Positions 38,049 through 56,771 of a DNA stretch of 64,000 bases are shown here, piece after piece. The DNA is from Streptomyces oryzae (lineage in GTDB: Bacteria; Actinomycetota; Actinomycetes; Streptomycetales; Streptomycetaceae): the NCBI RefSeq assembly GCF_017676365.1, contig NZ_JADKMA010000013.1, positions 1-64,000 on the forward strand, given 5' to 3'. Made by a program: the position numbers and the translations under genes. Under the pieces are notes generated by a model. That model had not been told where the DNA came from, did not search any database, and saw only the letters and a list, made by a program, of their open reading frames with translations. Each line of letters starts with the position of its first letter. The first letter of the stretch is position 1.

Positions 38049-39527
38049 ATGTTCGTCGATTCCGTCGATTCAGACATAGCGCCCAGTGGCACGCTGCTCG
38101 GCCTCCTCCAGAGGGGCCGCGGCGACGGGACGCTGCACGCCCTCGCGGCGCCGCGCTCCGAAGCGCTCGCCGCGCTTCGGCAGTGCGTCCTGCACGACCC
38201 CAGGCGCGACTGGCAGGTCGAACACCGCTCCCTGTACTACGCGCGTCTGCACAGGGAGCTGGACGCCGGTCCCGACGACATCGCCGCACACCTCTTCGAC
38301 CCCGCCGACCTGCTGTGCACCCCCGAGGAGGCCGAGGTCCGCACCGGGCTGGCGCTCTCCGTCCTGGGGCACCTCGCCTCCTACGCGGCGGCGCAGGGCG
38401 ACAGCTGGCGGGAGAACGCTCCGCTGCGGCTGCTGCGCCGCTATGCCACCACCGGCACCAACTGGCAGTGGGCCCTGGACGAGCTCGCCGTCCGCGACGA
38501 CGACGCCGGGCTGCGCCCGCTGGGCCCCGCCATCCTGGCCCGCTTCCCCAGAACCCCCGAGGGCGACGCCGAGCTGGCCGAAGCCGCGCGGGACGCCTTC
38601 GAGCCCCGCCCCTGGCGGCTGTGGGCGGAGGATTCCACCCACCCCGAGCAGGCCGACCGGCTGCGGCGGGTCCAGGAGTGCCGCTCCTTCGACCGATGGC
38701 AACGCCAGCTGCGGACCCCGGGCCCGCGCCCCGGGTGGAGCGTGCGCGAGATCCTCGAATGGGCGCAGGACGGGTACGAGCAGCACCCGCGCCAGCACCG
38801 CGAGGCGCCCGCCGCCCGCTGCCTGGCCGCCGTCGCCGGGCCCGAGGACCGGCCGCTGCTGCTGGCCGCCGCACGCGGCCCGCAGGAGGCCGCGCGGGCC
38901 GCGGCCCTGCGGCACCTCGCCGACCACGACGACGCCGACGTGCTGGACCTCATCGAGGAGGCCGCCGCCGATCCGGCCGAGACCGTCGGCCGCGCCGCCC
39001 TCTCCGCCTTCGCCCGTATGCGGTCCCTGACCGCGCTGGAGCGGGCCAGGCGCTGGGCGGCGGCCCCCGAGGGCGCCCTGCCGCCCGGGCTGGCCGCTGT
39101 CGCCGCCGAGATGCTCGCCTGCCGGGGCGGCGAGCAGGACGCCGACGCCGTGCTCGCGGCCCTGCGCCGCACCATCCGCCTGGAGGGCCCCGACAGTGCC
39201 GCACTGTGGCCGCTCGTGGACGGCGCCGGGCGGCTGTCCATCAGCTGCGCCGCGCCCGTGCTCCGGCACATCTACCGCGAGACCGCCTCCTCCCAGCTCA
39301 GAGGCCGCACCGCGCGCTCGCTCGCCGCCACCGATCCGTCCTTCCCCGCCGGGTTCGCCATCGAGTGCCTGTGGGACTGCGAGGAGTCCACCCGCCAGGT
39401 CGCCGCGGAGTGCGCCGCGACCGGTGACGCCCGCGTGGTGGAGCGCCTTCGGCGGCTCGCCGCCGATCCCGCGGAGGAGGCGGGAGTCCAGACCGCGGTT
39501 CGCGGGCGGCTCGCCCCGCCCGCTTAG
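38049..39527 (+). CDS. HEAT-repeat protein
   Basis: About 492 residues, nearly all helical, with repeated alpha-alpha hairpins (for example [27 protein letters not shown] and [13 protein letters not shown]), consistent with HEAT/PBS-lyase-like repeats. No enzyme motif is seen, so it is probably a protein-binding scaffold. The start is ambiguous: ATG at 38049 (MFVDSVDSD) is preferred, another lies at 38037, and neither has a clear ribosome site. Confidence 0.83.
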
Positions 39528-39618
39528 GCTTCCGGCCTGGCGGCTTGCCCGGGCGATTCTGCTTCGGCTTTCCGCCTGTGCGGGTGCGCCGTTGCGGCGG
39601 ATATGGGTCGGGCCCACC

Positions 39619-42600
39619 ATGGGTGGGGTGGGTGGTCGTTGGGAGTTCTGGGTCGACCGGGGCGGGACGTTCACCGATGTGGTCGGGCGGCGGCCGGACG
39701 GCACGCTCGTCAGTGAGAAGGTGCTCTCCCACGATCCGGGGCGGCCCGGCCGGGACGCCGCGGTCGCCGGAATCCGCAGACTGCTGGAGCTGCCGCCCGA
39801 GGCCCCCGTACCGGCCGACCGGATCGATGCCGTCAAGATGGGCACCACCGTCGCCACCAACGCCCTCCTGGAGCGCAAGGGCGAGCCGACCGTCCTGTTC
39901 ACCACCCGCGGCTTCCGGGACGCCCTCACGATCGCGTACCAGAACCGGCCGCGCATCTTCGACCGGCACATCGTGCTGCCCGAGGCGCTGTACGACCGTG
40001 TCGTGGAACTCCCGGAGCGGACGGGAGTGGACGGCACCGTCCTACAGCCGCTCGACCGGGAGGCCGCGGCAGCCGAGCTCCAGGAGGCATACCGCGCGGG
40101 GTTCCGCAGCGCCGCCGTCGTCCTGCTGCACGCCTACCGGCACCCCGCGCACGAGCGCGAGGTCGCCCGGCTCGCCCGCGAGGCGGGGTTTGCGCAGGTG
40201 AGCTGCTCACACGAGGTCAGTCCGCTGATCAAGCTGGTCCCGCGTGGGGACACCACCGTCGTGGACGCCTATCTGTCGCCCGTGCTGCGCCGCTACGTCG
40301 AGGAGGTGGCCCGCGAACTGAGCGGGGTCCGGCTGATGTTCATGCAGTCCAACGGAGGGTTGCGCGAGGCCGGGCACTTCAGGGGCAAGGACGCGGTGCT
40401 CTCCGGACCGGCCGGCGGGGTCGTCGGGATGGCCCGCAGCTGCGCCGAGGTGGGGCACGAGCGGGTCATCGGGTTCGACATGGGTGGTACGTCCACCGAT
40501 GTCTCGCACTATGCGGGCGCGCTGGAGCGGGTGTTCGGCACGCAGGTGGCCGGGGTGCGGATGCGGGCTCCCATGATGGACATCCACACCGTGGCGGCGG
40601 GCGGCGGTTCGGTGCTGCACTTCGACGGCGCCCGCTTCCGGGTGGGCCCGGACTCGGCGGGCGCGGTCCCGGGGCCCGCCTGCTACCGGCGCGGCGGCCC
40701 GCTGACGGTCACCGATGCCAACGTGATGCTGGGCCGGGTACAGCCCGCGCACTTCCCCGCCGTCTTCGGCCCCCGAGGTGACCAGCCGCTGGACACGGAG
40801 GCGGTCCGGGCGGGCTTCACGCGGATCGCCGAGGAGACCGGCGACGGGCGCACCGCCGAGCAGGTCGCGGCCGGGTTCCTGGAGATCGCCGTGCTCAACA
40901 TGGCGAACGCCGTCAAGAAGATCTCCGTACAGCGCGGCCACGACGTGACCCGTTACGCGCTGGCGAGCTTCGGCGGCGCCGGCGGGCAGCACGCCTGCGC
41001 GGTCGCCGACGAGCTGGGTGTCGGCACCGTGGTCGTACCCCCGCTCGCCGGTGTGCTGTCCGCGTACGGGATCGGCGTGGCCGACGCCACCGCGCTGCGG
41101 GAACAGTCCGTCGAGGGTGAGCTGACCGAGGAACGGCTGGCCGGGGTACGCGAGTTGTGCGCCCGGCTGGAGCGGCGGACCCGCGAGGAGTTGCGGGCCG
41201 ACGGCATCCCCGACGCGGCGATCGGCACGGCCGCCAGGCTTCAGCTGCGGTACGCCGGGACGGATGCCGTGCTGACGGTGCCGCTGGGCGGTGCGGCCCG
41301 GATGGCGGAGGATTTCGCGGCCGAGCACCGGGCGCGCTACGGCTTCACCATGGACAAGCCGCTGGTGATCGCCACAGCCGTGGCCGAGGCGACCGGCACC
41401 GCCGGCCCCGTGACCGCACACCCGGTCACTCCGGAACCGGGCGAGGGCAGCCCGGAACCCCACGACGTGGTGCAGATGTTCACGGGCGGGAGGTGGTGGG
41501 AAACGCCGCTGTACCGGCGCGCTGAGCTGCGGCCGGGGCAGCTCGTGACCGGTCCGGCCGTCGTCGTGGAGCCGGACGCCACCACGGTGGTGGACCAGGG
41601 CTGGGCAGCCGCGGCAGATCCGCACGGACATCTGGTGCTGACCCGGGTGCGGGCACGGGAGGCGGCGCCCGCTGTCGGCACCGAGGCCGATCCGGTGCGG
41701 CTGGAGGTCTTCAACAACCTCTTCATGGCGATCGCCGAGCAGATGGGCGTCCGGCTGGAGAAGACGGCGCACTCCGTCAACATCAAGGAGCGCCTCGACT
41801 TCTCCTGTGCGCTCTTCGACCCCGAGGGCAACCTCATCGCCAACGCACCGCACATCCCCGTGCACCTGGGCTCGATGGGCGACTCCATCAAGGAGGTACT
41901 GCGGCGCACCGCCGGGCAGCTGCGCCCGGGCGACGTCTACGCGGTCAACGACCCGTACCACGGCGGCACCCACCTGCCGGACATCACCGTGGTGACGCCG
42001 GTTTTCGGCCAGGGAGGCGACGGCGCGGTGCGGGACCGGCTGCTGTTTCTGGTCGCCTCACGCGGCCACCATGCCGAGATCGGCGGGCTGACCCCCGGTT
42101 CGATGCCCGCCTTCAGCCGCACTGTCGAGGAGGAGGGCGTGCTGTTCGACGCGTGGCTGCTGGTGCGCGACGGGCGGCTGCGCGAGGAGGAGACCCGCGC
42201 CCTGCTCACCGGAGCCCGTCATCCCTCGCGCGATCCGGACACCAACCTGGCCGACCTGCGCGCCCAGATCGCCGCCAACGAGAAGGGCATCGCGGAGCTG
42301 CGCAAGATGACCGAGCAGTTCGGCCTCGATGTCGTACAGGCTTATATGCGGCACGTGCGGGACAACGCCGAGGAGTCCGTACGCCGTCTCATCACCCGGC
42401 TGAGCGACGGCAGTTGCGCCTACGAGACCGACAGTGGGGCCGTCATCCGGCTGGCCGTCACGGTGGACCGCGCCAACCGCACTGCAGTGCTCGATTTCAC
42501 CGGGACGTCGCCGCAGCGGGACGACAACCTCAACGCGCCGAGCTCCGTGGTGACGGCAGCGGTGCTGTACGTCTTCCGGACACTGGTGGCCGACGACATC

Positions 42601-43287
42601 CCTCTGAACAGCGGCTGTCTGACGCCGCTGGAGGTACGCATCCCGGAGGGCTCGATGCTGTCGCCCGTGTACCCCGCCGCAACGGTCGCGGGCAATGTGG
42701 AGACGTCACAGGCGGTCACCGGCGCGCTCTACGCGGCACTCGGCGTGCAGGCCGAGGGCTCGGGCACGATGAACAACGTCACGTTCGGCAACAACCGCGT
42801 CCAGTACTACGAGACGGTTGCCAGCGGCTCCGGGGCCGGCGACGGCTTCGACGGCGCCGACGCGGTGCAGACCCATATGACCAACTCGCGGCTGACCGAC
42901 CCCGAAGTGCTGGAGTTCCGCTACCCGGTGCGGGTGGAGGACTTCCATGTGCGCCGCGGCAGCGGGGGAGCGGGCCGCTGGCGGGGCGGGGACGGGGTGG
43001 TGCGGCGGCTGCGGTTCCTGGAGCCGGTCACAATCGCGCTGTTGACGGGACACCGGCGTATCGCCCCCTACGGCATGGCGGGCGGCCACTCCGGCGCGCT
43101 GGGCGCCAATGTGGTGGAGCGCGCGGACGGCACGCGTACGGAGCTGGCCGGACGTGACGTGGCCGAACTCGGCGCCGGTGATGCCCTCGTGCTGTACACC
43201 CCGGGCGGTGGCGGCTACGGCACCCCGCCGTCGGTATCGCCATCGGCATCGCCACCGTCGCCGCCGCCACCGTCAACGGATCGTTGA
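39619..43287 (+). CDS. 5-oxoprolinase (fused HyuA-HyuB)
   Basis: A 1,222-residue fusion. The N-terminal HyuA/OplahA part (about 1-680) carries the actin-like ATP sites [11 protein letters not shown] and [12 protein letters not shown] (D287). The C-terminal HyuB part (about 690-1205) carries [31 protein letters not shown] and [10 protein letters not shown]. The full-length fusion matches ATP-hydrolysing 5-oxoprolinase, which opens pyroglutamate to glutamate, although hydantoinase-type specificity cannot be excluded. The C-terminus is a Ser/Pro-rich tail. A GntR/FCD regulator follows 54 bp downstream. Confidence 0.92.
43273..43287. promoter_or_regulatory. Palindrome TCAACG-gat-CGTTGA before the GntR gene
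   Basis: A perfect 6-3-6 inverted repeat overlapping the stop codon of the oxoprolinase gene and 55 nt before the regulator start. It is a candidate autoregulatory operator. Confidence 0.4.
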
Positions 43288-43341
43288 ACGATTCTGCGAT
43301 CCCGTGTTGTCCCGTTTCGGAAACTGGGGTTGACTTCGGTC

Positions 43342-44040
43342 ATGAGCGACAACGTGCTGGACGAACTCGGCGACGACCGGAAGCTGTTGGGGCGTACCAG
43401 CACGGCGGAGCGGGTCGCGGGCATCCTGCGCACCCGGATCATCGAGGGCGGTTTCCAGCCGGGCATGCGGCTGGCGGAGGAGGGGATCGGCAACGCGCTG
43501 GGCATCTCCCGCAATACCCTGCGCGAGGCGTTCCGGCTGCTCACCCACGAGCGGCTGCTGGTGCACGAGCTCAACCGCGGTATGTTCGTCCGCAAGCTCA
43601 CCGTCGAGGACCTGGAGGACCTCTACCGCGTCCGCCGCCTGGTCGAGTGCGCCACCCTGCATCAGCTGGCGGCGCCGCCCTACCCGGCGGCGGCCATGTC
43701 GGCCATGGAGTCGGCGGTGGCCGCGGGGCGGCGGGCGGCGGCCGAACAGCGCTGGCGCGACCTGGGAACGGCCAACATGCACTTCCATCAGGGACTGGTC
43801 GAGCTGGCCGAAAGTCCGCGCACCGACGAGATGATGCGCGGGGTGCTGGCCGAACTCCGGCTCGTCTTCCAGGTGATGGAGAACCCCCGCCGGTTCCACG
43901 AGCCGTATCTGCCGCGCAACGAGGAGATCCTGGACGCCCTCCGCCGCGGCGACGCCTCAGGTGCCGAGCGGCTGCTTGCCGTCTACCTCGACGACTCCCG
44001 GCGCCAGCTCGCCGAGGAGTACGCGCGCCAGCTAAGCTGA
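43342..44040 (+). CDS. GntR-family regulator (FCD)
   Basis: A 232-residue FadR-subfamily repressor. The winged helix spans about 24-85 (AERVAGILRTRIIEGGFQPGMRLAEE ... GISRNTLREAFRLL), and the FCD ligand domain begins near LYRVRRLVE with an acid/His metal-site pattern. It directly follows the 5-oxoprolinase gene and likely controls it in response to an organic acid. ATG start; the ribosome site is a weak GGGGTTGA. Confidence 0.92.
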   Translation: MSDNVLDELGDDRKLLGRTSTAERVAGILRTRIIEGGFQPGMRLAEEGIGNALGISRNTLREAFRLLTHERLLVHELNRGMFVRKLTVEDLEDLYRVRRLVECATLHQLAAPPYPAAAMSAMESAVAAGRRAAAEQRWRDLGTANMHFHQGLVELAESPRTDEMMRGVLAELRLVFQVMENPRRFHEPYLPRNEEILDALRRGDASGAERLLAVYLDDSRRQLAEEYARQLS

Positions 44041-44144: not shown

Positions 44145-45692
44145 GTGTCCGTCGTGACTGAGAGCGCCACCACGACGAGCAGCCCGGCGAGGACAGGTGT
44201 GTCCGTGCCCTCTCCTGCCCCGGGACCGGCGGCCGACGAGGGCCTGGCCCGCCGACTGCGCGCGCTCGCCTGCACGGCGCCGCTGCACGACCTGGACACC
44301 CGCAAGGCCAACCTCGCCGGGGAGTACAGCACCTATGAGATGGCCGAGCTGGCGCTGGCCGCCATCGACCTGGTCACGCTCCAGATGGACTTCGACACCG
44401 GTGCCGACCACGACCAGATCGTCGCCAAGCTGCTGCCCCGCGTCGCGGCCCAGGCTCCCGCACGCGATGCCGCCGAGCACGAACGGGTGGCCCGCTGGGT
44501 CCTGGAGAACATGATCAACGTGGGCAGCGTGGACCGCGGCTTCCGCGCCGTCTACGGCACCTTCGGGCCCGACGGCAGCTACGTACGGCGGGACTACGAC
44601 TTCAAGCTCATCGAGGAGGTGCCGGGCCCCGGCGGCAGCGTCTATCTGCGCACCACGGACGAGGCGGTCAACGTCCTGGTCGGCGCGCTCGACACGGACG
44701 TCACCAGCGCCCAGATCGCCGCCGAGGTCAAGCTGGAGGTCCTCATCAGCCGCGGCCGGCTCGCCGACGCGCAGCTCGCCGCCGAACAGGCCCGCTACCG
44801 CACGGTCCAGTACGCGGAGACGCTGCGCCGCACCCTGGAGGCCACCCGGCGGGACGTCCGTGCCGTCGACTGGCTCAGCGCCGTCCCGGACATGATCAAC
44901 GAAGCGCTCGACCACGTCGCCGACCGCTACCGCCACGAGAACGCCATCCTCACCAACATCCGCAAGGCGCGCGACGAGGCTGCTTCCGAACGGGGCCCCG
45001 ACCACAAGCGGCGCGCCGCCGAGCTGGTCGACATCGTCAAGGACTGCATCCGCCGCCACACCCAGCTCCAGTCCCGGCTGCTGGAGGCCGGACCGCTCTT
45101 CCGCGCTGAACAGGACCGGCAGTCCTTCGCACCGCCCGCGGCCCGCGCCGGGCTCGACCTGTACGGCCAGCTCCTCGCGCCGGTACTGCCACTGCCGCTC
45201 GAGCAGGCCGCGCGGGTGACCGACGCCTTCTTCGCGCGGGGCACCGGGCTGCGGACGCCGGGCGCCCTACGGCTGGGCGACCTCACGGACATGCTGCTGA
45301 CACCACCCGCGCCCCGGGAGCACCTGGGCGCCGAGATGCCCGAGCCCGATCTGGTCGCCACGCCGGACGACAGCCGCTTCAGCGAGGAGCAGCTCGCCGT
45401 CGCCATGGAGCTGCTGGAGCTGCCGCCCGACGCGCCGCGCCGCCTCTCAGGCCTGCTGGCCGAAGCCCGGCGCCGCGACCCGGACCTGCCGTACCTCATC
45501 GCCCTGCTGGCCGTGCACGCCGCCAGTCCACCGGTCGGCACGGCGTATCGCCAGGGAGAGGAGCGGCTGTTGTTCGCCGTGGACGACGGCACCCCCTTGG
45601 ACGACGAGGAGTTCGGCGGTGCCGACCTGATCGTGGGCACGGCACTGCTGGACGCGGCCGGGATGGCCGCGGACCGAACGGAGGCCGCATGA
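44145..45692 (+). CDS. Putative kleisin-like subunit (MukF/JetA-like)
   Basis: A 515-residue soluble protein, first of three co-directional genes ending in a giant SMC-like ATPase. The N-terminal third (about 35-150) looks like a winged-helix region (YSTYEMAELALAAIDLV ... RWVLENMINVG), the middle (about 175-320) is long helical, and the C-terminal third is another small helical/winged domain ending acidic. This order (WHD, helical neck, WHD) is what a MukF/JetA kleisin would have. The assignment rests on architecture and context, not on a recognised motif. GTG start with no clear ribosome site (44154 GTG is an alternative). Confidence 0.62.
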   Translation: MSVVTESATTTSSPARTGVSVPSPAPGPAADEGLARRLRALACTAPLHDLDTRKANLAGEYSTYEMAELALAAIDLVTLQMDFDTGADHDQIVAKLLPRVAAQAPARDAAEHERVARWVLENMINVGSVDRGFRAVYGTFGPDGSYVRRDYDFKLIEEVPGPGGSVYLRTTDEAVNVLVGALDTDVTSAQIAAEVKLEVLISRGRLADAQLAAEQARYRTVQYAETLRRTLEATRRDVRAVDWLSAVPDMINEALDHVADRYRHENAILTNIRKARDEAASERGPDHKRRAAELVDIVKDCIRRHTQLQSRLLEAGPLFRAEQDRQSFAPPAARAGLDLYGQLLAPVLPLPLEQAARVTDAFFARGTGLRTPGALRLGDLTDMLLTPPAPREHLGAEMPEPDLVATPDDSRFSEEQLAVAMELLELPPDAPRRLSGLLAEARRRDPDLPYLIALLAVHAASPPVGTAYRQGEERLLFAVDDGTPLDDEEFGGADLIVGTALLDAAGMAADRTEAA

Positions 45693-45707
45693 ACCGGACG
45701 AGCGACC

Positions 45708-46601
45708 ATGACTGACTTCGCACCGGAGCCCGACCCGGACGACGGGTTCGGCAACGAGAGCTCCGCACCCTCCGCACCACAGGTGACCCCAGCGGACGCG
45801 GCCGACGCTGCCCGTCTCGTCTCGTTCGGACTGCACCCGAAGCTGGCGCCCGCCAGGGACGCCGAGTACACCGAACTGCTGCGCCGCTACCGCGAGGAGC
45901 CCGCCTTCGCGCGGCTGGCCGACGCGGTGGCCACCGGCCTCGGCCTCGTCGTGCTCGAGGTCTCCACCCGTACGGGCATGGCACTGGCCGCCGCCGAGGA
46001 CTCCGTCTTCGCGGTCCGCATGGGCGACTACGCAAGGCGGGCCGGCGCCGACTCCACGGACCGCTTTCTGCACGGCCTGGCCCATCTGGCCTGCGCAGCC
46101 ATGGCCTTCCCCCGCCCCGAGGACCTGGCCGACGACGGCTACATCGGCCGTATCACCGTCAACGGCGTGGACTCCTTCGTCCGCCAGGCGTGCCGCAAGC
46201 TGGAGGAGCGGGCCGAGGCCGCGGGCGAGAACACCGACCCGGCCACCGAAGCGCCGGGCCTGGAGGCCGCCTGGCGGGTCTACGCACGGCGCAGCTCCAC
46301 CGGCGCCACCAAGGACGCCCGCAGGCTCGCCGGCTCCACCACCGGCATCATCGCCAAGGCCGTCGCCTTCCTCGCCGACTCCGGATTCCTCCAGCGCACC
46401 GGGGACGAAGCGGGCGGCACCTACCGCACCACAGCCCGCTATCAGTTGCAGGTCCGCGACATGGCGGGCAGCGCCGCCATGGCCGAGCTGCTGGAGCTGG
46501 GCGTCGTCCCGGTTTCGGACGGCACGGCCAGCCTGCTGCCGCCGCCGGACGGCGACGACCTGGAGCCGGCGCCGGACGCCGGACTGCCCTTCCACTCCTG
46601 A
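45708..46601 (+). CDS. Putative MukE/JetB-like subunit
   Basis: A 297-residue acidic-tailed protein, starting 15 nt after the previous gene. The centre contains two winged-helix-like segments (about 50-150 and 180-250, for example YARRSSTGATKDARRLAGSTTGIIAKAVAFLADSGFLQR). Small tandem-winged-helix proteins in this position are the MukE/MksE/JetB (kite) partners of SMC-kleisin complexes. The role is inferred from size, fold pattern and operon position. Confidence 0.58.
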   Translation: MTDFAPEPDPDDGFGNESSAPSAPQVTPADAADAARLVSFGLHPKLAPARDAEYTELLRRYREEPAFARLADAVATGLGLVVLEVSTRTGMALAAAEDSVFAVRMGDYARRAGADSTDRFLHGLAHLACAAMAFPRPEDLADDGYIGRITVNGVDSFVRQACRKLEERAEAAGENTDPATEAPGLEAAWRVYARRSSTGATKDARRLAGSTTGIIAKAVAFLADSGFLQRTGDEAGGTYRTTARYQLQVRDMAGSAAMAELLELGVVPVSDGTASLLPPPDGDDLEPAPDAGLPFHS

Positions 46602-46694
46602 CCGACCCCGTCCCGATCCCGCCGATCCGCACCGCCGGCACCCGCCGGCTTCCACCACCGATCTCCGCCGATCTTCAACGAGAGCCCCGCCGCC

Positions 46695-49600
46695 ATGTAC
46701 GAGCTGTCCCGGATCCGCCTCTACTCCATCGGGCCCGCCGGTGCGCGCTATGCCGACACCGTGCTGGACCTGCGCGGAGTCGGCGAGCCCGTGCCCAGCC
46801 CGGCGCCCGCGCAGGCGGACTTCTTCGAGGAGGAGCCGCAGGGCCCGCCCCGCCGCCCGGCGCCCGCCGGCGTGCTCTTCCTGGAGAACGGCGGCGGCAA
46901 GTCGGTACTGCTCAAGCTGATCTTCTCCGTGATGCTGCCAGGGCACCGCAACACCCTGGGCGGCGCCAGCTCGGGTGTGCTCCGCAAGTTCCTGCTCGCG
47001 GACGACTGCGGCCATGTCGCCCTGGAATGGCAGCACACCAGGACGGGCGAGACGATCGTCGTCGGCAAGGTCAGCGAGTGGCGGGGCCGCCAGGTCTCCG
47101 GCGACCCGCGCAAGTTCGCCGAGGCGTGGTATTCCTTCCGGCCGGGCCCCGGCCTGTCCCTGGACTCCCTCCCCGTCGCCGAGTCGGCGGCGCTGCGGCC
47201 CAGGGCCGAGGGCACGTCCTCGGCGCGCGGCCGACGGCGCACCATGAAGGGCTTCCGTGACGTACTGACCGAGACGGGCAAGGCGTATCCCAACCTGGAC
47301 GTCGCCTGGGAGGAGATCCACGAGCGCTGGAACGAACATCTGACCACGCTCGGCCTGGACCCCGAACTCTTCCGCTACCAGCGGGAGATGAACGCCGACG
47401 AAGGCGAGGCGGCGGGCCTGTTCGCGGTCAAGAACGACTCGGACTTCACCGACCTGCTGCTGCGCGCCGTCACCGACACCCGGGACACCGACGGCCTCGC
47501 CGACCTCGTGCACGGCTTCGCGCACAAGCTCGGCCGCCGCGCCGAGCTGACCGCCGAGCGCGACTTCACCGCGGGCTCCCTCGACCATCTGCACCGCATC
47601 ACCGAGGCCGCCGAGGCGCGCGCCCGGGCCCGGGAGATCCACGCCGGAGCCGAGCGCCGCACCCGCCACCTCGCCCACCGGCTGACCGCGCGGGGCACCC
47701 AGGAGCGCGGACGCGCCGCCGAGCTGGCCGAACAGCTGGAGCAGGCACGGGAGTCGGTCACCGCGGCCGAGGAGGCCCGCACCCGCGCCTCCCGCATCGC
47801 CGCAGAACTGGCCTACCGGCACGCCTCGCTGGCGCTGGCCGCAGCAGAGAAATCCGCTGCGGCGCAGAAGCGCGAACTGAGCGAGGCCCGCACGCTGCAC
47901 TCCGCCTGGCAGGCCGCCGAGACCGTGCTCGCGCACCGTACGGCCGCCGACCGCTCGGCCCGCGTCGCCGCCGCCATCCGCGAGGCCGAGCGCGACGCGG
48001 CCCCCGCGCTGGCCGCGCGCGCCCAGGCGGCAACCGCGCTGGTACGCGCCCTCAACGTCGCAGCCGAGGACAGCGAACGTATCGCCGGTGAACAGGAAGA
48101 GCGCTCCGCCGCCCTCCAGACCGAGAGCGAGAGCGCCCACCGGGACGCCACGGCAGCCGCCACCGAGGCACAGCGCGCCCGCAGCGAGACCGAGCACCTG
48201 CGCCAGCGCCTCACCGAGGTGGAGCAGGAGATGGAGCAGGCCGTACGCGCGGGCTGGCTGGACGACAGCGGCCCGGACGCCGACCCGGCCCGCGCCGCGC
48301 TGGCCGCAAGCGACGCCGAGAAGAGCGCTGTCGCCGCCTTCGAGTCCGCCCGCGACGCGGCAGCCCGCAGCGCCGAGCGGGCCCGCGAGCTGGCCGGCCG
48401 CCACGCGAGCGCGGAGCTCGCCGCAGCGCGCGCCGCGGACGCCGCCGAGGCCGCGGAGGGCGCGTACACAGGCGAGCGCGCCACTGCGGAAGCGCTCGGC
48501 GCCGAGGAACGCCTGGCCGAACTGCTCGGGCTGCCCGCCGGCCCCGCTCCCCGGAGCGCCGACGCGGGCCAGGCTGCACAGGCACGGGCGACGCTCCCCG
48601 GCCAGCGCAACGCGGGCGGCCCTTCCGATGCACGGGACTCCGGCGCGGAGGCCACCGCCGATCCGGGCCGGCGCACCGGTGCCGTACCGGGCCAGGGCGG
48701 CGCCCCGGAGGCCGGGGCCGGGTCCGGCGCGGGCTCCGCTCCCCGTACGGACTCGGGCGGTACGGCCGCCGACCGTCCAGCAGGCGACCGTACGCGCCCC
48801 GACCGGGCAGCCGCCTTGCCACAAGGCCCGCTCACCGCCGAGGAGTTGGACCGCAACGCCGAGGCGCTCCAGGAACTGCTGGACGAGGGCGTGGCCGCCG
48901 CAGAGCGGCAGCTGTTCGAGCTGCGTACGGCCGCAGCGGACGACTCCCGGATGCTGGGCGCGCTCGGCGACGGGGGGCTGCTCCCGCCGGGCCCCGATGT
49001 GACCGCCACCGTGGAGTATCTGGGCGAGCACGGTGTGCCCGCGCTGCCCGGCTGGCGCTACCTCGCCCAGGCCGTGGACCCGGCCGACCACGCTGCCGTC
49101 CTCGCGGCGCGGCCCGAGCTGGTCGACGGCGTCATCATCACCGACCCCGACAGCCACGCGCGCGCCCGCGAGGTGCTGGCGGGCGCGGCGCTGCTGCCCC
49201 GTTCGGCCGTCGCCGTCGGTACGTCAGCCGCGCTGCTGGCCCCGGCGCCCGCGCCGGACAGCGGCGGCGGTTCCGCCGGCTCCGAGGTCTTCCTCGTACC
49301 GCCGAACCCAGCGATGCACGACGAACACGCGGCCGACGACGAGCGCCGCCAACTGCGCGAGCGCGCAGCGGCCCGCGACGAGGAGATCCGGGCGCTGGCG
49401 GCCCGGCTTTCCGCCGACCGGGCGCTGGCGGCGCGCCTCGCCTCGTGGCGCAGCGGCTGCCCCGAAGGCCGGCTGGACGAGCTCGCCGAGGCGGCGGCGC
49501 AGGCCCGCGAGGCCGCCCAGGCGGCACAGCAGCAGCTCGCCGAGGTCCGCGAGGCGCGCGCCGAGGCCGATGAACAGGCCGCCGAGACCGCCAGGGTCAG

Positions 49601-51749
49601 GGACGAGCGTCAGGAAGCGGCCCAGCGCGCCCGCCGCAGCGCCGACGCGCTCGCTGGGCTCGCCTTCCGGCTGCGGCAGCGCGCCACATGGCAGGGGCGG
49701 CTGCGCGAGCTGGCCGACGACGTCGCCACAGCGCAGGAGCGGGCCGAACAGTGCCTGGAGCGGGCACGTTCGGCCGACGAGGACCGGCGCGCGGCCCAGC
49801 GCGCGGCCGACGACGCACACCGCACGGCCCGCACCCTGCGCGCCGAACGCGCCGAGATCGCGGGCGTACAGGACGACCCCGAAGACCCGGCGGAGGCGGC
49901 GGAGGCGGCCAACGGCGATCCGGCGGCCCCGACCCCTGGCGACAGGCGCGACACGCAGCCCGAGCGCACCGCCTCGCTGCCCGACCTGCGCGAGGCGTAC
50001 CGTTCGGCGTCCCAGCTGTACGAGAAGGTCGGCGTCGGTGCCGACCTGCGCGCCGAACAGGCCCGCGCCGAGGGCGACGAGTCGGCGGCCAAGGCGGCGC
50101 TCGACCGGCTCAGCAACAAGGTGCGCACCCGCGCTGCCCAGCTGCTGGAAGGCCCAGACGGCGCCGACGGCCCCTCCAGGCAGGCCGCGGCAGCCCGCGC
50201 CGAAGCCCTGGTCCAGCGGCTGGAGGCCCGCAACTCCGACGCCAGCGAACAGCTCGGCAGGCTCCGCGGCGAGGCCGAGCGGCTGGCACCCGGCGACGGC
50301 GACCACCACACCGAACTCCCGGACGAACTGGTCCCCGCCGACGCCGCGCAGGCCCAGACCCTGCTGCGGACCGCCAACGCCGAACTGGCGGCACGCGGCG
50401 ACGAACTGGAAGCGGCACGTGCGGCGCACACCGCGCTCCAGCGCTCACACGCCGCCGCCGAGGAAGCCGCGAGCGGCTTCGACGAGACCGCGGCCACGCT
50501 CCGCGACCTGCTCCGCGACCCCGCGGCGCACGTGCCGGGGGAGCAGGACGGCGAGGAGTCCCCCGAGCCGTACGCGGGCAGCCCGGCCGAGGCCCGGCAG
50601 GCGGCGGCCGAGGCACGGCGCTCACTGCGCGGCTGCGCCGCCGATCTGAGCGCCGCCGAGCAGTCCGTGCGTGAGGCGTGCGACGTCCTCGTACGGCACG
50701 CCAACTCCAGCCGCTACGAGCAGGTCCGCACCCCCGCACGGCAGCAGGTGCGCGAGCTGCCGGCCTCCGCGCTGCCCGACCACGCGGCTGCCTGGGCGGC
50801 GGCGTTCGCGCCCCGGCTGCGCGTGCTGACGGACGAGCTGGCCCAGTTGGAGCGCAACCGGGACAGCATCGTGGACCGGCTGCGCGGGCTGGTGGAGTCC
50901 TCGCTGACGACGCTGCGTTCGGCGCAGCGGCTCTCCCGGCTGCCGGAGGGGCTGGGGGAGTGGTCGGGTCAGGAGTTCCTGCGTATCCGCTTCGACGATC
51001 CCGACCAGGCCACCCTCACCGAGCGGTTGGGGGAGGTCATCGACGAGGCCACCCGCGCGGCCGTCCGCAAGAACTCCGATCTGCGCCGCGACGGAATGAC
51101 GCTGCTGCTGCGCGGGGTGCACGCCGCGCTCCAGCCGCGCGGCGTCTCCGTGGAGATCCTCAAGCCGGACGCCGTGCTGCGTGCCGAGCGGGTGCCGGTC
51201 GGACAGATGGGCGACGTCTTCTCCGGCGGCCAGCTGCTGACCGCGGCCATCGCCCTGTACTGCACGATGGCGGCGCTGCGCAGCAACGACCGGGGCCACG
51301 ACAAGCACCGGCACGCCGGCACCCTCTTCCTGGACAACCCCATCGGCCGGGCCAACGCCACCTATCTGCTGGAGCTCCAGCGGGCCGTGGCCGACGCACT
51401 GGGCGTCCAGCTCCTCTACACCACCGGCCTGTTCGACACCACGGCCCTGGCGGAGTTCCCGCTGGTGATCCGGCTGCGCAACGACGCGGACCTGCGGGCC
51501 GGGCTGAAGTACATCAGCGTGGAGGAGCATCTGCGGCCCGGCCTGCCCCAGCCGGAGGACGGGGACGGCGAGGCCGCCGTGCACGGGGAGATCACCGCGA
51601 CACGGATGTTCCGCCGCCCCGAGCAGAATCCGCCCGGGACGCACGGCGAGCCGGGGGCGCAGCAGCCGGAGCCGGATGCCCGGCCGGACGTTCCCGCCCC
51701 TCATCCGCCGGGTGACGCGCCGGACGCGGCACACTCGCCGCGCTCCTGA
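46695..51749 (+). CDS. SMC-like ATPase (MukB/JetC-like)
   Basis: A 1,684-residue split-head ABC ATPase with long coiled coils. Walker A is LENGGGKS (63-70). Alanine/glutamate-rich coiled coils run about 270-590 and 880-1440. Between them lie a disordered Gly/Pro/Ala insert (about 615-710) and a globular hinge-like segment (about 740-870, including GVIITDPDSHARAREVL). The ABC signature FSGGQ is at 1509-1513 and Walker B at 1543-1547 (TLFLD). The residue after Walker B Asp is Asn1548, not the usual catalytic Glu. The tail is low-complexity and overlaps a convergent gene. Predicted to form a DNA-loading complex with the two preceding gene products. Confidence 0.8.
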   Translation: MYELSRIRLYSIGPAGARYADTVLDLRGVGEPVPSPAPAQADFFEEEPQGPPRRPAPAGVLFLENGGGKSVLLKLIFSVMLPGHRNTLGGASSGVLRKFLLADDCGHVALEWQHTRTGETIVVGKVSEWRGRQVSGDPRKFAEAWYSFRPGPGLSLDSLPVAESAALRPRAEGTSSARGRRRTMKGFRDVLTETGKAYPNLDVAWEEIHERWNEHLTTLGLDPELFRYQREMNADEGEAAGLFAVKNDSDFTDLLLRAVTDTRDTDGLADLVHGFAHKLGRRAELTAERDFTAGSLDHLHRITEAAEARARAREIHAGAERRTRHLAHRLTARGTQERGRAAELAEQLEQARESVTAAEEARTRASRIAAELAYRHASLALAAAEKSAAAQKRELSEARTLHSAWQAAETVLAHRTAADRSARVAAAIREAERDAAPALAARAQAATALVRALNVAAEDSERIAGEQEERSAALQTESESAHRDATAAATEAQRARSETEHLRQRLTEVEQEMEQAVRAGWLDDSGPDADPARAALAASDAEKSAVAAFESARDAAARSAERARELAGRHASAELAAARAADAAEAAEGAYTGERATAEALGAEERLAELLGLPAGPAPRSADAGQAAQARATLPGQRNAGGPSDARDSGAEATADPGRRTGAVPGQGGAPEAGAGSGAGSAPRTDSGGTAADRPAGDRTRPDRAAALPQGPLTAEELDRNAEALQELLDEGVAAAERQLFELRTAAADDSRMLGALGDGGLLPPGPDVTATVEYLGEHGVPALPGWRYLAQAVDPADHAAVLAARPELVDGVIITDPDSHARAREVLAGAALLPRSAVAVGTSAALLAPAPAPDSGGGSAGSEVFLVPPNPAMHDEHAADDERRQLRERAAARDEEIRALAARLSADRALAARLASWRSGCPEGRLDELAEAAAQAREAAQAAQQQLAEVREARAEADEQAAETARVRDERQEAAQRARRSADALAGLAFRLRQRATWQGRLRELADDVATAQERAEQCLERARSADEDRRAAQRAADDAHRTARTLRAERAEIAGVQDDPEDPAEAAEAANGDPAAPTPGDRRDTQPERTASLPDLREAYRSASQLYEKVGVGADLRAEQARAEGDESAAKAALDRLSNKVRTRAAQLLEGPDGADGPSRQAAAARAEALVQRLEARNSDASEQLGRLRGEAERLAPGDGDHHTELPDELVPADAAQAQTLLRTANAELAARGDELEAARAAHTALQRSHAAAEEAASGFDETAATLRDLLRDPAAHVPGEQDGEESPEPYAGSPAEARQAAAEARRSLRGCAADLSAAEQSVREACDVLVRHANSSRYEQVRTPARQQVRELPASALPDHAAAWAAAFAPRLRVLTDELAQLERNRDSIVDRLRGLVESSLTTLRSAQRLSRLPEGLGEWSGQEFLRIRFDDPDQATLTERLGEVIDEATRAAVRKNSDLRRDGMTLLLRGVHAALQPRGVSVEILKPDAVLRAERVPVGQMGDVFSGGQLLTAAIALYCTMAALRSNDRGHDKHRHAGTLFLDNPIGRANATYLLELQRAVADALGVQLLYTTGLFDTTALAEFPLVIRLRNDADLRAGLKYISVEEHLRPGLPQPEDGDGEAAVHGEITATRMFRRPEQNPPGTHGEPGAQQPEPDARPDVPAPHPPGDAPDAAHSPRS

Positions 51750-52354: not shown

Positions 52355-55249
52355 ATGCGCTTTCGCGGGAAGTCCATCCGCCGGAAGATCGTGGTACTGC
52401 TGCTGGTGCCGCTGGTCTCCCTGCTGTCCATCTGGGGCTTCGCGACCTACATCACGGCTGCCGAGGCGAACAGTCTGCTGCGGCTGGACGAGATCACCCA
52501 CAAGATCGGCAACCCGACCGAGGACGCCGTACGGGCCATCCAGCGCGAACGCCGCCAGATCATGGTCCACGTCGCCGACCCCGGCAACAGCCAGGAGAAG
52601 AGGCTCCTGCAGCAGGTTCAGGGCACGACGGACCGGAAGATCTCCGTCGTCCGCCGCAACGCGTCCGACAGCGGCCTCCGTTCCGATCTGGGCCCCGAAT
52701 CCAAGGCCCGGCTGGGCGACTTCCTGGAGGCGCTGGACGGGCTGAAGAGCCTGCGGTCCCGCGTCGAGCACAACACCGTCACTCGCGGCGGCGTCTTCCA
52801 GGCGTACAACGAACTCATCGACCCCGCCTACGCGCTGGTCGACTCGCTCAGCGCCGTCGACGACGTCGATCTGGAGAAGCAGGGCCGCGCCCTGGTCGGC
52901 CTCTCCCGCGCCCGCGAGTACCTCTCCCGCGAGGACGCGCTGATGGCGGCCGCCTATGCGGCGGGCCAGTTCACCCGGGGCGACCAGCGCGCCCTCTCCG
53001 ACCGCGTCGCCGAGCGCAACATCGCCTACGAGAGCAACCTCCCCTCGCTGCCCGCCGAGGACCGGCAGCTGTTCGAGAACTACTGGAACGGCAGCGACGG
53101 CCGCACCCTGCGCAGTTACGAGGACGCCGTCATCGCCGCCGGGCCGCGCACCAGTGAGGGGCCGATCGACGAGGAGCGCTGGCACCTGGGCAACACCACG
53201 GTGCTCGACGACCTCCAGCGGATGGGCGAGCAGGCACGGAAGCGGTTCCAGAAGCGCGTCGACCCCGTCGCCACCCGGGTCCTCGTCCAGGCGGCGGCCG
53301 CCGGTGTGCTCGGCTTCCTCGCCGTACTGGCCTCTCTCGTCATCTCCATCCGCGTCGCCCGCAGCCTGGTCCGGGATCTGAACACCCTCCGCAAGGAGGC
53401 CAACGAGGCGGCGGGCCAACGGCTGCCCAGCGTGATGCGCCGTCTCGCGGCGGGTGACAAGGTGGACGTCGAGACCGAGTCCCCCAGCCTGGAGTACCCC
53501 GCCGACGAGATGGGCCAGGTCGGACAGGCCCTCAACACCTTGCAGCGGGCCGCGGTCGAAGCCGCCGTCAAACAGGCCGACATGCGGCGCGGCGTCTCCG
53601 AGGTCTTCGTCAACCTCGCCCGCCGCAACCAGGTGCTGCTGCACCGCCAGCTCACCCTCCTCGACGCCATGGAGCGCCGCACCGAGGACGCGGACGAACT
53701 CGCCGACCTCTTCAAACTCGACCACCTCACCACCCGCATGCGCCGCCACGCCGAGGGCCTGGTCATCCTCTCCGGGGCTGCGCCCTCCCGGCAGTGGCGC
53801 AAGCCCGTCCAGCTGATGGACGTCGTCCGGGCCGCCGTCGCCGAGGTGGAGGACTACGAGCGGATCGAGGTGCGCAGACTGCCCCGGCTCGCGGTGGACG
53901 GCAGCGCGGTCGCCGACCTGACCCATCTGATCGCCGAACTGCTTGAGAACGCCACGGTGTTCTCCCCGCCGCACACCGCCGTGCAGGTGCTGGGGGAGCG
54001 GGTGGCCAACGGCTTCACCCTGGAGATCCACGACCGCGGCCTCGGTATGACGGCCGACGCGATGCTGGATGCCAACCTGCGGCTGGCCGAGACGCCCGAG
54101 TTCGAGCTGTCCGACACCGACCGGCTCGGCCTGTTCGTGGTCTCCCGGCTCGCCCAGCGCCAGGGCGTACGGGTCTCGCTCCAGCCCTCGCCCTACGGCG
54201 GCACCACCGCTGTCGTCCTCATCCCCGGCACCGTACTGACCGAGACCTCCGGCCGCGACGAGGACCAGCGCGGACCGGGCGCTACCGCCATCGAAGCCGG
54301 GAAGTCCACCCACCCGCTGAACGGCCCCGTCGAGCTGGAGGCCCCCTTGGAGGAGGAGCCTCGCGCCTCCCGAAAGACCAGCGCCTCCCGTAAGACCGGC
54401 GCCCCCCGGGAGAGCCGTGGCGGACCCCGCAGGCGCCGGCCCGACACGGCACCTGCCTCGGCTGCCGGGGAGCAGCACCAGCAGACGCGGGACGAGGCCC
54501 CGCCCGCCGCCCGCGCGAACGCCCGCGCCGAGACCGCCGCCGGGCCCGGAACCGAACCCGGCACCGCTTCCGGAGCCCCATCGGGCGCGGGCACCGGGCC
54601 GGGTGACAGCGGCGGGTCCGGCACCGGGGGACCGGCGCCGCTGCCCCGCCGCCGTCCCGGCGCACCGGTGCTGGTCTCCGACAACGGGCGCACTGTCGAC
54701 CCGGACCGCCGTCCGACCGACGAGGGTGCGAGCGAGAGCGGCCGCGCGCCACTGCCCCGCCGCAAGCCCGGCACGAACGGCCGCACCGGACCGGGTTCCC
54801 GGCAGGACGCCGCCTCCCGGCCCGGGTCCGGCACCGCACCCGACGAGGGAGCAGCCGAGGACCGGCCCACCGCCGAGGCCCGGACCGAGGCCGAGGGCTC
54901 AGCGCGTACCGGGGGCTCCTCCGGGACCGCCGGGGAGGCCGAGCAGCCGTCGGCGCAGTCCGAGGCGGCCGGTGGCCGGGTCGGCGGCCTGCCGCGCCGC
55001 GTCCGCCAGGCCAGCCTCGCGCCGCAGCTCAAGGCGGACACGCCGACCGCCGACACCCCGATGCAGCAGGCGCGTACGGGCACCCAAGGATCCAGCTCGT
55101 CGGAGGTCGACGATCGCGACGCCGACGAAGTGCGCAGCAGAATGGCCTCCCTCCAGCGCGGCTGGGAACGCGGCAGACGCGAGAGCGAACCGCCGCAGGA
55201 CGCGGGGGAGTCAGCACCAGGAACAACACCGGGAGGGGACGGTCGATGA
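52355..55249 (+). CDS. cvnA: Conservon histidine kinase (CvnA)
   Basis: A 964-residue sensor kinase. It has a TM helix at about 13-35, an extracytoplasmic helical nitrate/nitrite-sensing (NIT)-like domain to about 305, a second TM at about 310-332, a HAMP-like segment, the conserved LFKLDHLTTRMRRHAEGLV dimerisation helix and an HATPase with N-box ELLENA (N532). No canonical H-box histidine motif is seen, which is usual for conservon kinases. A disordered 340-residue tail holds three LPRR motifs. ATG start with GGGGAGG upstream. First gene of the cvnABCD operon, overlapping cvnB by 4 nt. Confidence 0.93.
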   Translation: MRFRGKSIRRKIVVLLLVPLVSLLSIWGFATYITAAEANSLLRLDEITHKIGNPTEDAVRAIQRERRQIMVHVADPGNSQEKRLLQQVQGTTDRKISVVRRNASDSGLRSDLGPESKARLGDFLEALDGLKSLRSRVEHNTVTRGGVFQAYNELIDPAYALVDSLSAVDDVDLEKQGRALVGLSRAREYLSREDALMAAAYAAGQFTRGDQRALSDRVAERNIAYESNLPSLPAEDRQLFENYWNGSDGRTLRSYEDAVIAAGPRTSEGPIDEERWHLGNTTVLDDLQRMGEQARKRFQKRVDPVATRVLVQAAAAGVLGFLAVLASLVISIRVARSLVRDLNTLRKEANEAAGQRLPSVMRRLAAGDKVDVETESPSLEYPADEMGQVGQALNTLQRAAVEAAVKQADMRRGVSEVFVNLARRNQVLLHRQLTLLDAMERRTEDADELADLFKLDHLTTRMRRHAEGLVILSGAAPSRQWRKPVQLMDVVRAAVAEVEDYERIEVRRLPRLAVDGSAVADLTHLIAELLENATVFSPPHTAVQVLGERVANGFTLEIHDRGLGMTADAMLDANLRLAETPEFELSDTDRLGLFVVSRLAQRQGVRVSLQPSPYGGTTAVVLIPGTVLTETSGRDEDQRGPGATAIEAGKSTHPLNGPVELEAPLEEEPRASRKTSASRKTGAPRESRGGPRRRRPDTAPASAAGEQHQQTRDEAPPAARANARAETAAGPGTEPGTASGAPSGAGTGPGDSGGSGTGGPAPLPRRRPGAPVLVSDNGRTVDPDRRPTDEGASESGRAPLPRRKPGTNGRTGPGSRQDAASRPGSGTAPDEGAAEDRPTAEARTEAEGSARTGGSSGTAGEAEQPSAQSEAAGGRVGGLPRRVRQASLAPQLKADTPTADTPMQQARTGTQGSSSSEVDDRDADEVRSRMASLQRGWERGRRESEPPQDAGESAPGTTPGGDGR

Positions 55250-55692
55250 CCGCACCGAACGCCGCTTCGCACAACGCTGGAAGTGGTGAGCTCAACTGGC
55301 TCCTCGACGAGCTGGTCCAGCGCGTCGGCAGCATACGCAAGGCGCTCGTGCTCTCCGGGGACGGCCTCGCCAAGGGCGCCTCGGAGGGACTCACCCGGGA
55401 GGACAGCGAGCATCTGGCAGCCGTTGCCTCCGGGTTCCACAGCCTCGCCAAGGGAGTCGGCCGGCACTTCGCGGCCGGCGGCGTACGGCAGACCGTGATC
55501 GAGCTGGAGGAGGCGTTCCTCTTCGTCACGGCAGCAGGTGACGGCAGTTGCCTGGCCGTACTGGCCGACGCCGACGCCGATGTCGGCCAGGTTGCCTACG
55601 AGATGACGCTCCTGGTCAAGCGGGTCGGCGCGCATCTGGGCACCGCGCCGCGCAGCACGCCCGCCGACGGCGACCCCGCTGGAGCCAACTGA
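55246..55692 (+). CDS. cvnB: Conservon roadblock/LC7 protein (CvnB)
   Basis: A 148-residue roadblock/LC7-fold protein (LNWLLDELVQRVGSIRKALVLSGDGL ... RQTVIELEEAFLFVTAAGDGSCLAVLA). In conservons it associates with the kinase and with the CvnD GTPase and may act as its GTPase-activating partner. ATGA overlap with cvnA indicates translational coupling. Confidence 0.95.
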   Translation: MTAPNAASHNAGSGELNWLLDELVQRVGSIRKALVLSGDGLAKGASEGLTREDSEHLAAVASGFHSLAKGVGRHFAAGGVRQTVIELEEAFLFVTAAGDGSCLAVLADADADVGQVAYEMTLLVKRVGAHLGTAPRSTPADGDPAGAN

Positions 55693-55750
55693 CCGTACGA
55701 CCAGTGACCACAGGGCGACGGGACGAGGCAGCGAGAGGACGGGGCCGGCC

Positions 55751-56185
55751 ATGACGAACCGCTGGTTCGACGACGCAGGACCCGTGGTGCGCCCGTACGC
55801 GATGACCCGGGGCCGTACCCGCAGCAGCGCGAAGGACGCGCAGCTCGACCTCATCGCCCTCGTCATCGCCGACAGCCCGGACGCGGCGGAGCCGGACGAC
55901 GGATCCGCCGCGGCGGGCGACCTTCTTCCGGAGGAGGAGGACAAGCTCCTCGCCGACCACTCCTTCGTGCCCGAACACTTCGACATTCTCGCGCTCTGCC
56001 GCCGCTCCCCCCTCTCGGTGGCGGAGCTGGCGGCGGAACTCGACCTTCCCGTGGGGGTGGTACGCGTCCTGATCGGCGACCTGGTGGAGGCCGGACTGGT
56101 ACGCGTCACCCGCCCCGTCCCTCCGGCGGAGCTGCCGGACGAGAGCATCCTCAGAGAGGTGATCAATGGGCTTCGGGCGCTCTGA
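55751..56185 (+). CDS. cvnC: Conservon DUF742 protein (CvnC)
   Basis: A 144-residue DUF742 protein with a conserved start (WFDDAGPVVRPYAMTRGRT) and a winged-helix-like C-terminus (LSVAELAAELDLPVGVVRVLIGDLVEAGLVRV). It is 58 nt after cvnB and overlaps cvnD by 20 nt. Probably an adaptor within the conservon complex. Confidence 0.95.
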   Translation: MTNRWFDDAGPVVRPYAMTRGRTRSSAKDAQLDLIALVIADSPDAAEPDDGSAAAGDLLPEEEDKLLADHSFVPEHFDILALCRRSPLSVAELAAELDLPVGVVRVLIGDLVEAGLVRVTRPVPPAELPDESILREVINGLRAL

Positions 56186-56771
56186 GCGGGGCGGCAGGAC
56201 GGCCCCGGCCGAACCGGTCACGCTGAAGATCCTGGTGGCCGGGGGCTTCGGCGTCGGCAAGACCACACTGGTGGGCGCGGTCAGCGAGATCAAACCGCTG
56301 CGCACCGAGGAGCTGCTGACCGAGGCCAGCCGCCCCGTGGACAGCACCAGAGGGGTGGAGGCGAAGGCCACCACGACGGTCGCCATGGACTTCGGCCGCA
56401 TCACCATCAACGAAGCACTCGTGCTGTATCTGTTCGGCACGCCGGGCCAGGACCGGTTCTGGTTCCTGTGGGACGAGCTGGCCACCGGCGCGCTCGGCGC
56501 CGTGGTGCTGGCCGACACCCGGCGGCTGGAGAACAGCTTCGCGGCGATCGACTACTTCGAGCGCCGCAGCATCCCCTTCACGGTGGCCGTCAACTGCTTC
56601 GACGACGCCGAGCGGTACCCCGCCGAGACCGTGCGCGAAGCCCTCGATCTCGACGGGGCCGTGCCTGTGCTGCTGTGCGACGCGCGGCAGCGGGAGTCCG
56701 CGCGGGATGTGCTCATATCGGTGGTCGAGCACGCCATGCGGAGCGCTGCGCGGGCACCCGCCGACATGTGA
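56166..56771 (+). CDS. cvnD: Conservon Ras-like GTPase (CvnD)
   Basis: A 201-residue small GTPase of the MglA-like group. P-loop GGFGVGKT (26-33), switch-I TTTVAMDFG, G3 FGTPGQ (90-95) without the usual Asp, and base-specificity motif NCFD (143-146). It completes the cvnABCD set, a G-protein-coupled-like signalling unit of actinomycetes. Confidence 0.95.
   Translation: MGFGRSERGGRTAPAEPVTLKILVAGGFGVGKTTLVGAVSEIKPLRTEELLTEASRPVDSTRGVEAKATTTVAMDFGRITINEALVLYLFGTPGQDRFWFLWDELATGALGAVVLADTRRLENSFAAIDYFERRSIPFTVAVNCFDDAERYPAETVREALDLDGAVPVLLCDARQRESARDVLISVVEHAMRSAARAPADM

Follow-up and report, generated by a model that had tools for sequence, protein, structure and literature searches.

A JetABC trio without JetD in Streptomyces oryzae, related to type III Wadjet and possibly retained as an additional chromosomal SMC complex

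A window of 64,000 nucleotides of Streptomyces oryzae DNA (the whole stretch analysed) contains three consecutive genes that resemble the motor of a Wadjet plasmid-restriction system and raise the question of what such a motor does when its nuclease, JetD, is missing. The sequence-only reading of this stretch had described three same-strand genes encoding proteins of 515, 297 and 1,684 residues at 44145-51749 and had interpreted them as an orphan SMC-kleisin-kite complex of the MukBEF/Wadjet kind. Coordinates, lengths and strand were confirmed, and the interpretation is supported by PADLOC matches to JetA3 and JetC3, by JetB homology and by weak structural models resembling MukF and MukE. The features of the trio are as follows.

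44145..45692, + strand: JetA-like kleisin, 515 aa (PADLOC JetA3, PDLC00567, 623 bits, E 9e-188)
45708..46601, + strand: JetB-like KITE protein (tandem winged-helix), 297 aa, with an acidic N-terminal extension (JetB homology, AF2 fold)
46695..51749, + strand: JetC-like SMC ATPase, 1684 aa (PADLOC JetC3, PDLC00588, 1396 bits, E ~0)
46872..46913, + strand: Walker A motif of JetC, ENGGGKS (VLFLENGGGKSVLL), from a motif scan; kept in JetD-less and JetD-linked copies
48531..48836, + strand: low-complexity Gly/Ala/Pro-rich insert of JetC, ~100 aa, approximate extent, from a gap in the JetC3 profile match
51204..51245, + strand: ABC signature of JetC, FSGGQ (QMGDVFSGGQLLTA), from a motif scan
51324..51359, + strand: Walker B-like motif of JetC, FLDNPIG (LFLDNPIGRANA), from a motif scan

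The genes are separated by only 15 bases (JetA-JetB) and 93 bases (JetB-JetC), and their GC3 of 0.91-0.92 is typical of coding sequence in the S. oryzae genome. Pfam and NCBIfam gave no useful name for any of the three proteins; PF09660, tried as a model for JetA, found no match even in control genomes and carries no weight. The ATPase motifs of JetC are intact and its head is split, with the Walker A motif near the N-terminus and the signature and Walker B-like motifs near the C-terminus. The Walker B-like motif has an asparagine at the position that carries the catalytic glutamate in many ABC ATPases, which makes ATP hydrolysis by JetC uncertain. Most JetD-linked type III copies have the same residue, so that it does not point to decay. 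The insert (residues ~613-714) splits the JetC3 match near profile position ~593, and the match resumes at 48837. The match is broken at this position in many of the core JetC copies, whereas it is continuous in JetD-linked copies.

JetB is 48-59% identical to JetB from JetD-bearing operons of related genomes. No PADLOC model matches JetB of the trio, nor JetB of a JetD-bearing operon. PADLOC 2.0.0 lacked a matching model for every type III JetB scanned (P0002, L033:3842-4675, L034:8532-9380), even beside JetA3, JetC3 and JetD3, and type III Wadjet operons may consequently be missed or misnamed by annotation pipelines.

In Foldseek searches of 350,542 PDB chains, the two best hits for the AF2 model of JetA were MukF (3euh_B and 1t98_A; E ~0.03) and the three best for JetB were MukE (3euh_C, 3rpu_Y and 9gmb_E; E 0.03-0.07). 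These E values are weak and the models themselves are of low confidence (mean pLDDT of 54 for JetA and 66 for JetB), but each subunit separately finds its expected counterpart, which makes the kleisin and KITE assignments credible. Alignment with hhalign to the single sequences of Escherichia coli MukF and MukE gave no significant similarity (E of 0.13 and 0.43, respectively) and had low power (Neff about 2), while single-sequence and profile searches of PDB sequences returned nothing relevant for the trio proteins. The architecture suggested by these weak structure models, by JetA3 homology and, for JetC, by its motifs is that of a kleisin with winged-helix domains, a KITE protein and a split-head SMC ATPase, as in MukBEF/MksBEF, with dimerization of the KITE protein inferred. 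The reading of the first two proteins as kleisin and kite would have failed had they proved unrelated to those folds, and this did not happen.

Neither beside the trio nor anywhere in the S. oryzae genome was a JetD found with PF09983 (JetD_C) or PDLC00594 (JetD3), and none of the neighbours matches a defence model. The two models are able to detect JetD: PF09983 scores in a Corynebacterium glutamicum control and both match the JetD3 of a JetD-bearing Streptomycetaceae operon (L033). No JetD adjoins the trio in any of the 43 Streptomycetaceae and Frankiaceae loci examined. The earlier claim that no JetD lies next to the trio thus held and is extended to the whole genome, and a JetD conserved beside it in relatives, which would have counted against that claim, was not seen in these 43 loci. 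Among 150 Streptomycetaceae genomes, a recognized JetD of any type is present in only 22, and at least 126 have the core JetA and no recognized JetD. The trio meets the JetA, JetB and JetC criteria of type III Wadjet and fails the requirement for JetD in the operon. Since JetD is absent it is by definition not a Wadjet system; we infer that the trio is a derivative without JetD, expected to function in the manner of MksBEF.

The neighbours of the trio in S. oryzae are as follows.

39196-43287: fused hydantoinase/oxoprolinase A-B gene, directly upstream with the GntR-like gene
43330-44040: GntR-like regulator, upstream of the trio (by sequence)
52355-56771: conservon (NIT-sensor histidine kinase, Roadblock, DUF742, GTPase), downstream of the trio

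The GntR regulator and conservon named as neighbours by the sequence-only reading are both borne out, the former as a GntR-like protein judged by its sequence; Pfam, applied only to an ORF overlapping the GntR-like gene in another frame, found nothing there. The upstream pair recurs in only some Streptomyces and is unlinked to the trio elsewhere, and conservon-like genes lie downstream in about half of the Streptomycetaceae loci and not in the Frankia copies. Across the 43 JetD-less loci no fourth gene is common to Streptomycetaceae and Frankiaceae, only JetA, JetB and JetC being shared (leaving out a small frame on the opposite strand inside the trio and a single gene that recurs weakly).

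The trio is a core, near-universal trait of the Streptomycetaceae. Across the 150 genomes (17 genera), JetA was matched in 148, JetB in 147 and JetC in 149. In one genome (G010, genus g10) the matching JetA belongs to a divergent copy linked to JetD (L091), and core JetA is thus present in 147/150 genomes and 16/17 genera; the only genome without all three genes (G075) is an assembly of 670 contigs. Matches to JetB and JetC were fragmented in Streptomyces sp. SCUT-3 (G012; L170/L039) and in G084, where frameshifts or assembly errors are suspected. Pairwise dN/dS values of 0.05-0.27 between core copies indicate purifying selection. A canonical SMC is also encoded in the S. oryzae genome. Beyond the Streptomycetaceae, a sample of 297 genomes from the class yielded JetA3 in Frankiaceae alone, where its distribution is patchy (19/35).

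JetD-bearing relatives of the trio occur within the same family. Some Streptomycetaceae genomes carry a second JetABC, rare and divergent and mostly 30-60% identical to the core copy, with JetD directly following the second jetC in eight loci (L031, L033, L083-L085, L087, L088 and L090). A strong JetD3 match and a second JetA coincide in ten of the 13 genomes that have each (Fisher p 7e-11). No JetA-like genes were found in phage records. They are rare on plasmids, and the only close plasmid relative has an adjoining JetD: the linear plasmid of Rhodococcus pseudokoreensis (NZ_CP070616.1; L178) encodes a complete type III JetABCD with an annotated JetD and a JetA that is 54% identical to that of S. 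oryzae.

The JetD-less trio is nested among such operons. In the JetA tree, a branch supported at 91/88 separates all 43 JetD-less rows (28 from Streptomycetaceae, S. oryzae included, and 15 from Frankiaceae) from the JetD-linked operons; the JetC tree shows this split too, but is weakly supported there. Within the Streptomycetaceae the JetA tree largely tracks genera, as vertical descent would predict. Both trees lack a root; loss of JetD, as opposed to its gain, is inferred from the occurrence of JetD throughout the deeper type III branches. In JetD-less copies, JetB frequently carries a long, variable extension at its N-terminus, and JetD-linked JetB does not. The idea that a JetD-binding motif was lost from this end led to no conclusion, as the extension is also absent from some JetD-less copies, namely a Frankia copy (L108) and, according to the called gene starts, those of Pseudonocardiaceae.

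A scan of named genomes revealed further JetABC loci without an adjoining JetD in Pseudonocardiaceae (Amycolatopsis, Haloechinothrix and Actinophytocola), and JetD_C was undetected in 14 of these 16 genomes, the other two giving borderline matches. Their copies lie apart from those of Streptomycetaceae and Frankiaceae, and a single grouping of all JetD-less rows was rejected by the AU test (p-AU 1e-4); the link to JetD has therefore been lost at least twice. In Haloechinothrix, JetABC has whiA on one side and gap-pgk on the other, with uvrC and rapZ upstream (H. aidingensis L168:7898-17468; also L155, L160 and L171), and gap also lies downstream of JetABC in Amycolatopsis orientalis (L162). 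The whiA/gap-pgk site is an ordinary housekeeping setting and not a defence island. The gene that this second JetD-less lineage adjoins, whiA, is a sporulation regulator. Linear chromosomes were considered as a reason for the trio and rejected, since Frankia and Amycolatopsis also have it.

Taken together, the balance of evidence leans, without being decisive, towards the trio being a type III Wadjet motor without its nuclease that is retained as a further chromosomal SMC complex in addition to the canonical SMC. Such a complex would be ATP-driven and MukBEF-shaped, comprising a JetC dimer, the JetA kleisin and a JetB KITE dimer, and would have descended from type III Wadjet plasmid restriction through loss of JetD. 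Without JetD it would load on DNA and extrude or compact it without cutting, serving as a housekeeping chromosome organizer in Streptomycetaceae and roughly half of the Frankiaceae. That the proteins assemble, that ATP is hydrolysed, that loops are extruded and that the chromosome is the target are inferences, and no experiment supports them as yet. Type I JetABC works as a dimer of dimers that translocates DNA and, on small circular DNA, activates JetD; MksBEF of Pseudomonas aeruginosa, which is thought to have lost JetD, acts on the chromosome (PMC10586767). Against this explanation stand the low-confidence structure models, the lack of significance with hhalign, the patchiness in Frankiaceae, the weak agreement of the JetC tree on one origin of the JetD-less group and the asparagine in the Walker B-like motif. 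So does the position of the locus, which in Streptomycetaceae is mostly found within the outer fifth of the chromosome (18/23 complete or near-complete chromosomes, with sizes partly rounded; p 3e-4 versus uniform), in agreement with the published concentration of Streptomyces Wadjet and Lamassu defence systems towards chromosome ends (PMC10482375).

This position is also one of two points in favour of the rival view that the trio is still an immune system, in which JetABC would detect circular DNA of foreign origin and bring in, in trans, some other nuclease not linked to the trio; the other is its ancestry in plasmid restriction. We consider this unlikely because defence systems do not typically occur in 147/150 genomes, evolve slowly and descend largely vertically, because no neighbouring gene is common to Streptomycetaceae and Frankiaceae and because at least 126/150 genomes have no recognized JetD, although an unknown nuclease encoded elsewhere is not excluded. 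It is similarly doubtful that the trio silences or compacts extrachromosomal DNA without cutting it, as has been proposed for Smc5/6 on viral DNA. In favour of such a role, a DNA-sensing motor is kept and the cutter is gone, and universal retention would be compatible with it, but direct evidence is lacking. Streptomyces keep circular plasmids stably, so that any silencing effect must be mild.

Least plausible of all is a Wadjet split across the genome, with JetD supplied in trans from another operon. Some JetD is indeed present in 22/150 genomes; however, S. oryzae and at least 126/150 others have none detectable by PF09983 or PDLC00594, and where JetD3 was examined it usually adjoins its own divergent JetC. 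JetD in trans is thus largely excluded, whereas an unlinked nuclease and non-cutting silencing remain possible. The sequence-only reading had left open chromosome organization, plasmid exclusion by another effector and recruitment of a nuclease in trans, and of these chromosome organization now fits best, by inference. A survey of the kind it had proposed for Streptomyces, on trio co-conservation and JetD presence but across Streptomycetaceae, gave the 147/150 (core JetA) and 22/150 (any JetD) reported above. The assignment to type III specifically, the status of the trio as a family core trait, the rare JetD-bearing sisters and the loss of the JetD link at least twice go beyond that reading.

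A bolder form of the preferred reading, that the trio is an unrecognized, near-universal second condensin derived from disarmed plasmid restriction and that Wadjet III was domesticated at least twice in Actinomycetota, seems to us as likely to be wrong as right. If true, it would provide recent, testable replicas of the origin proposed for MukBEF and MksBEF, which reviews propose to be Wadjet derivatives minus the JetD nuclease (PMC10586767). That proposed event is ancient, whereas here armed and disarmed forms coexist in one family; because they do so in Streptomycetaceae, and because loss was apparently repeated, the step from immunity to chromosome maintenance becomes directly testable. Work on Streptomyces chromosome biology, so far centred on SMC, may have missed a second complex of this type. 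No paper describing the JetD-less trio was found in the literature searched, which left most subscription journals out of scope.

Among the closest known systems, type III Wadjet has homologous JetA, JetB and JetC in the same order and similar Walker A, signature and Walker B-like motifs. The trio differs from it in lacking JetD both next to the locus and elsewhere in the genome, in being near-universal and slowly evolving rather than rare and divergent, and in usually having a longer JetB N-terminus and an insert in JetC. MksBEF of Pseudomonas, a JetD-less relative of type I Wadjet, is likewise a three-gene kleisin-KITE-SMC system without a nuclease; the trio derives instead from type III within Actinomycetota and would therefore represent an independent event. 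With E. coli MukBEF the trio shares the gene order MukF-MukE-MukB, and the solved structures that come nearest to JetA and JetB are those of MukF and MukE; it differs in lacking significant sequence similarity to MukF and MukE and in residing in a host that also has a canonical SMC.
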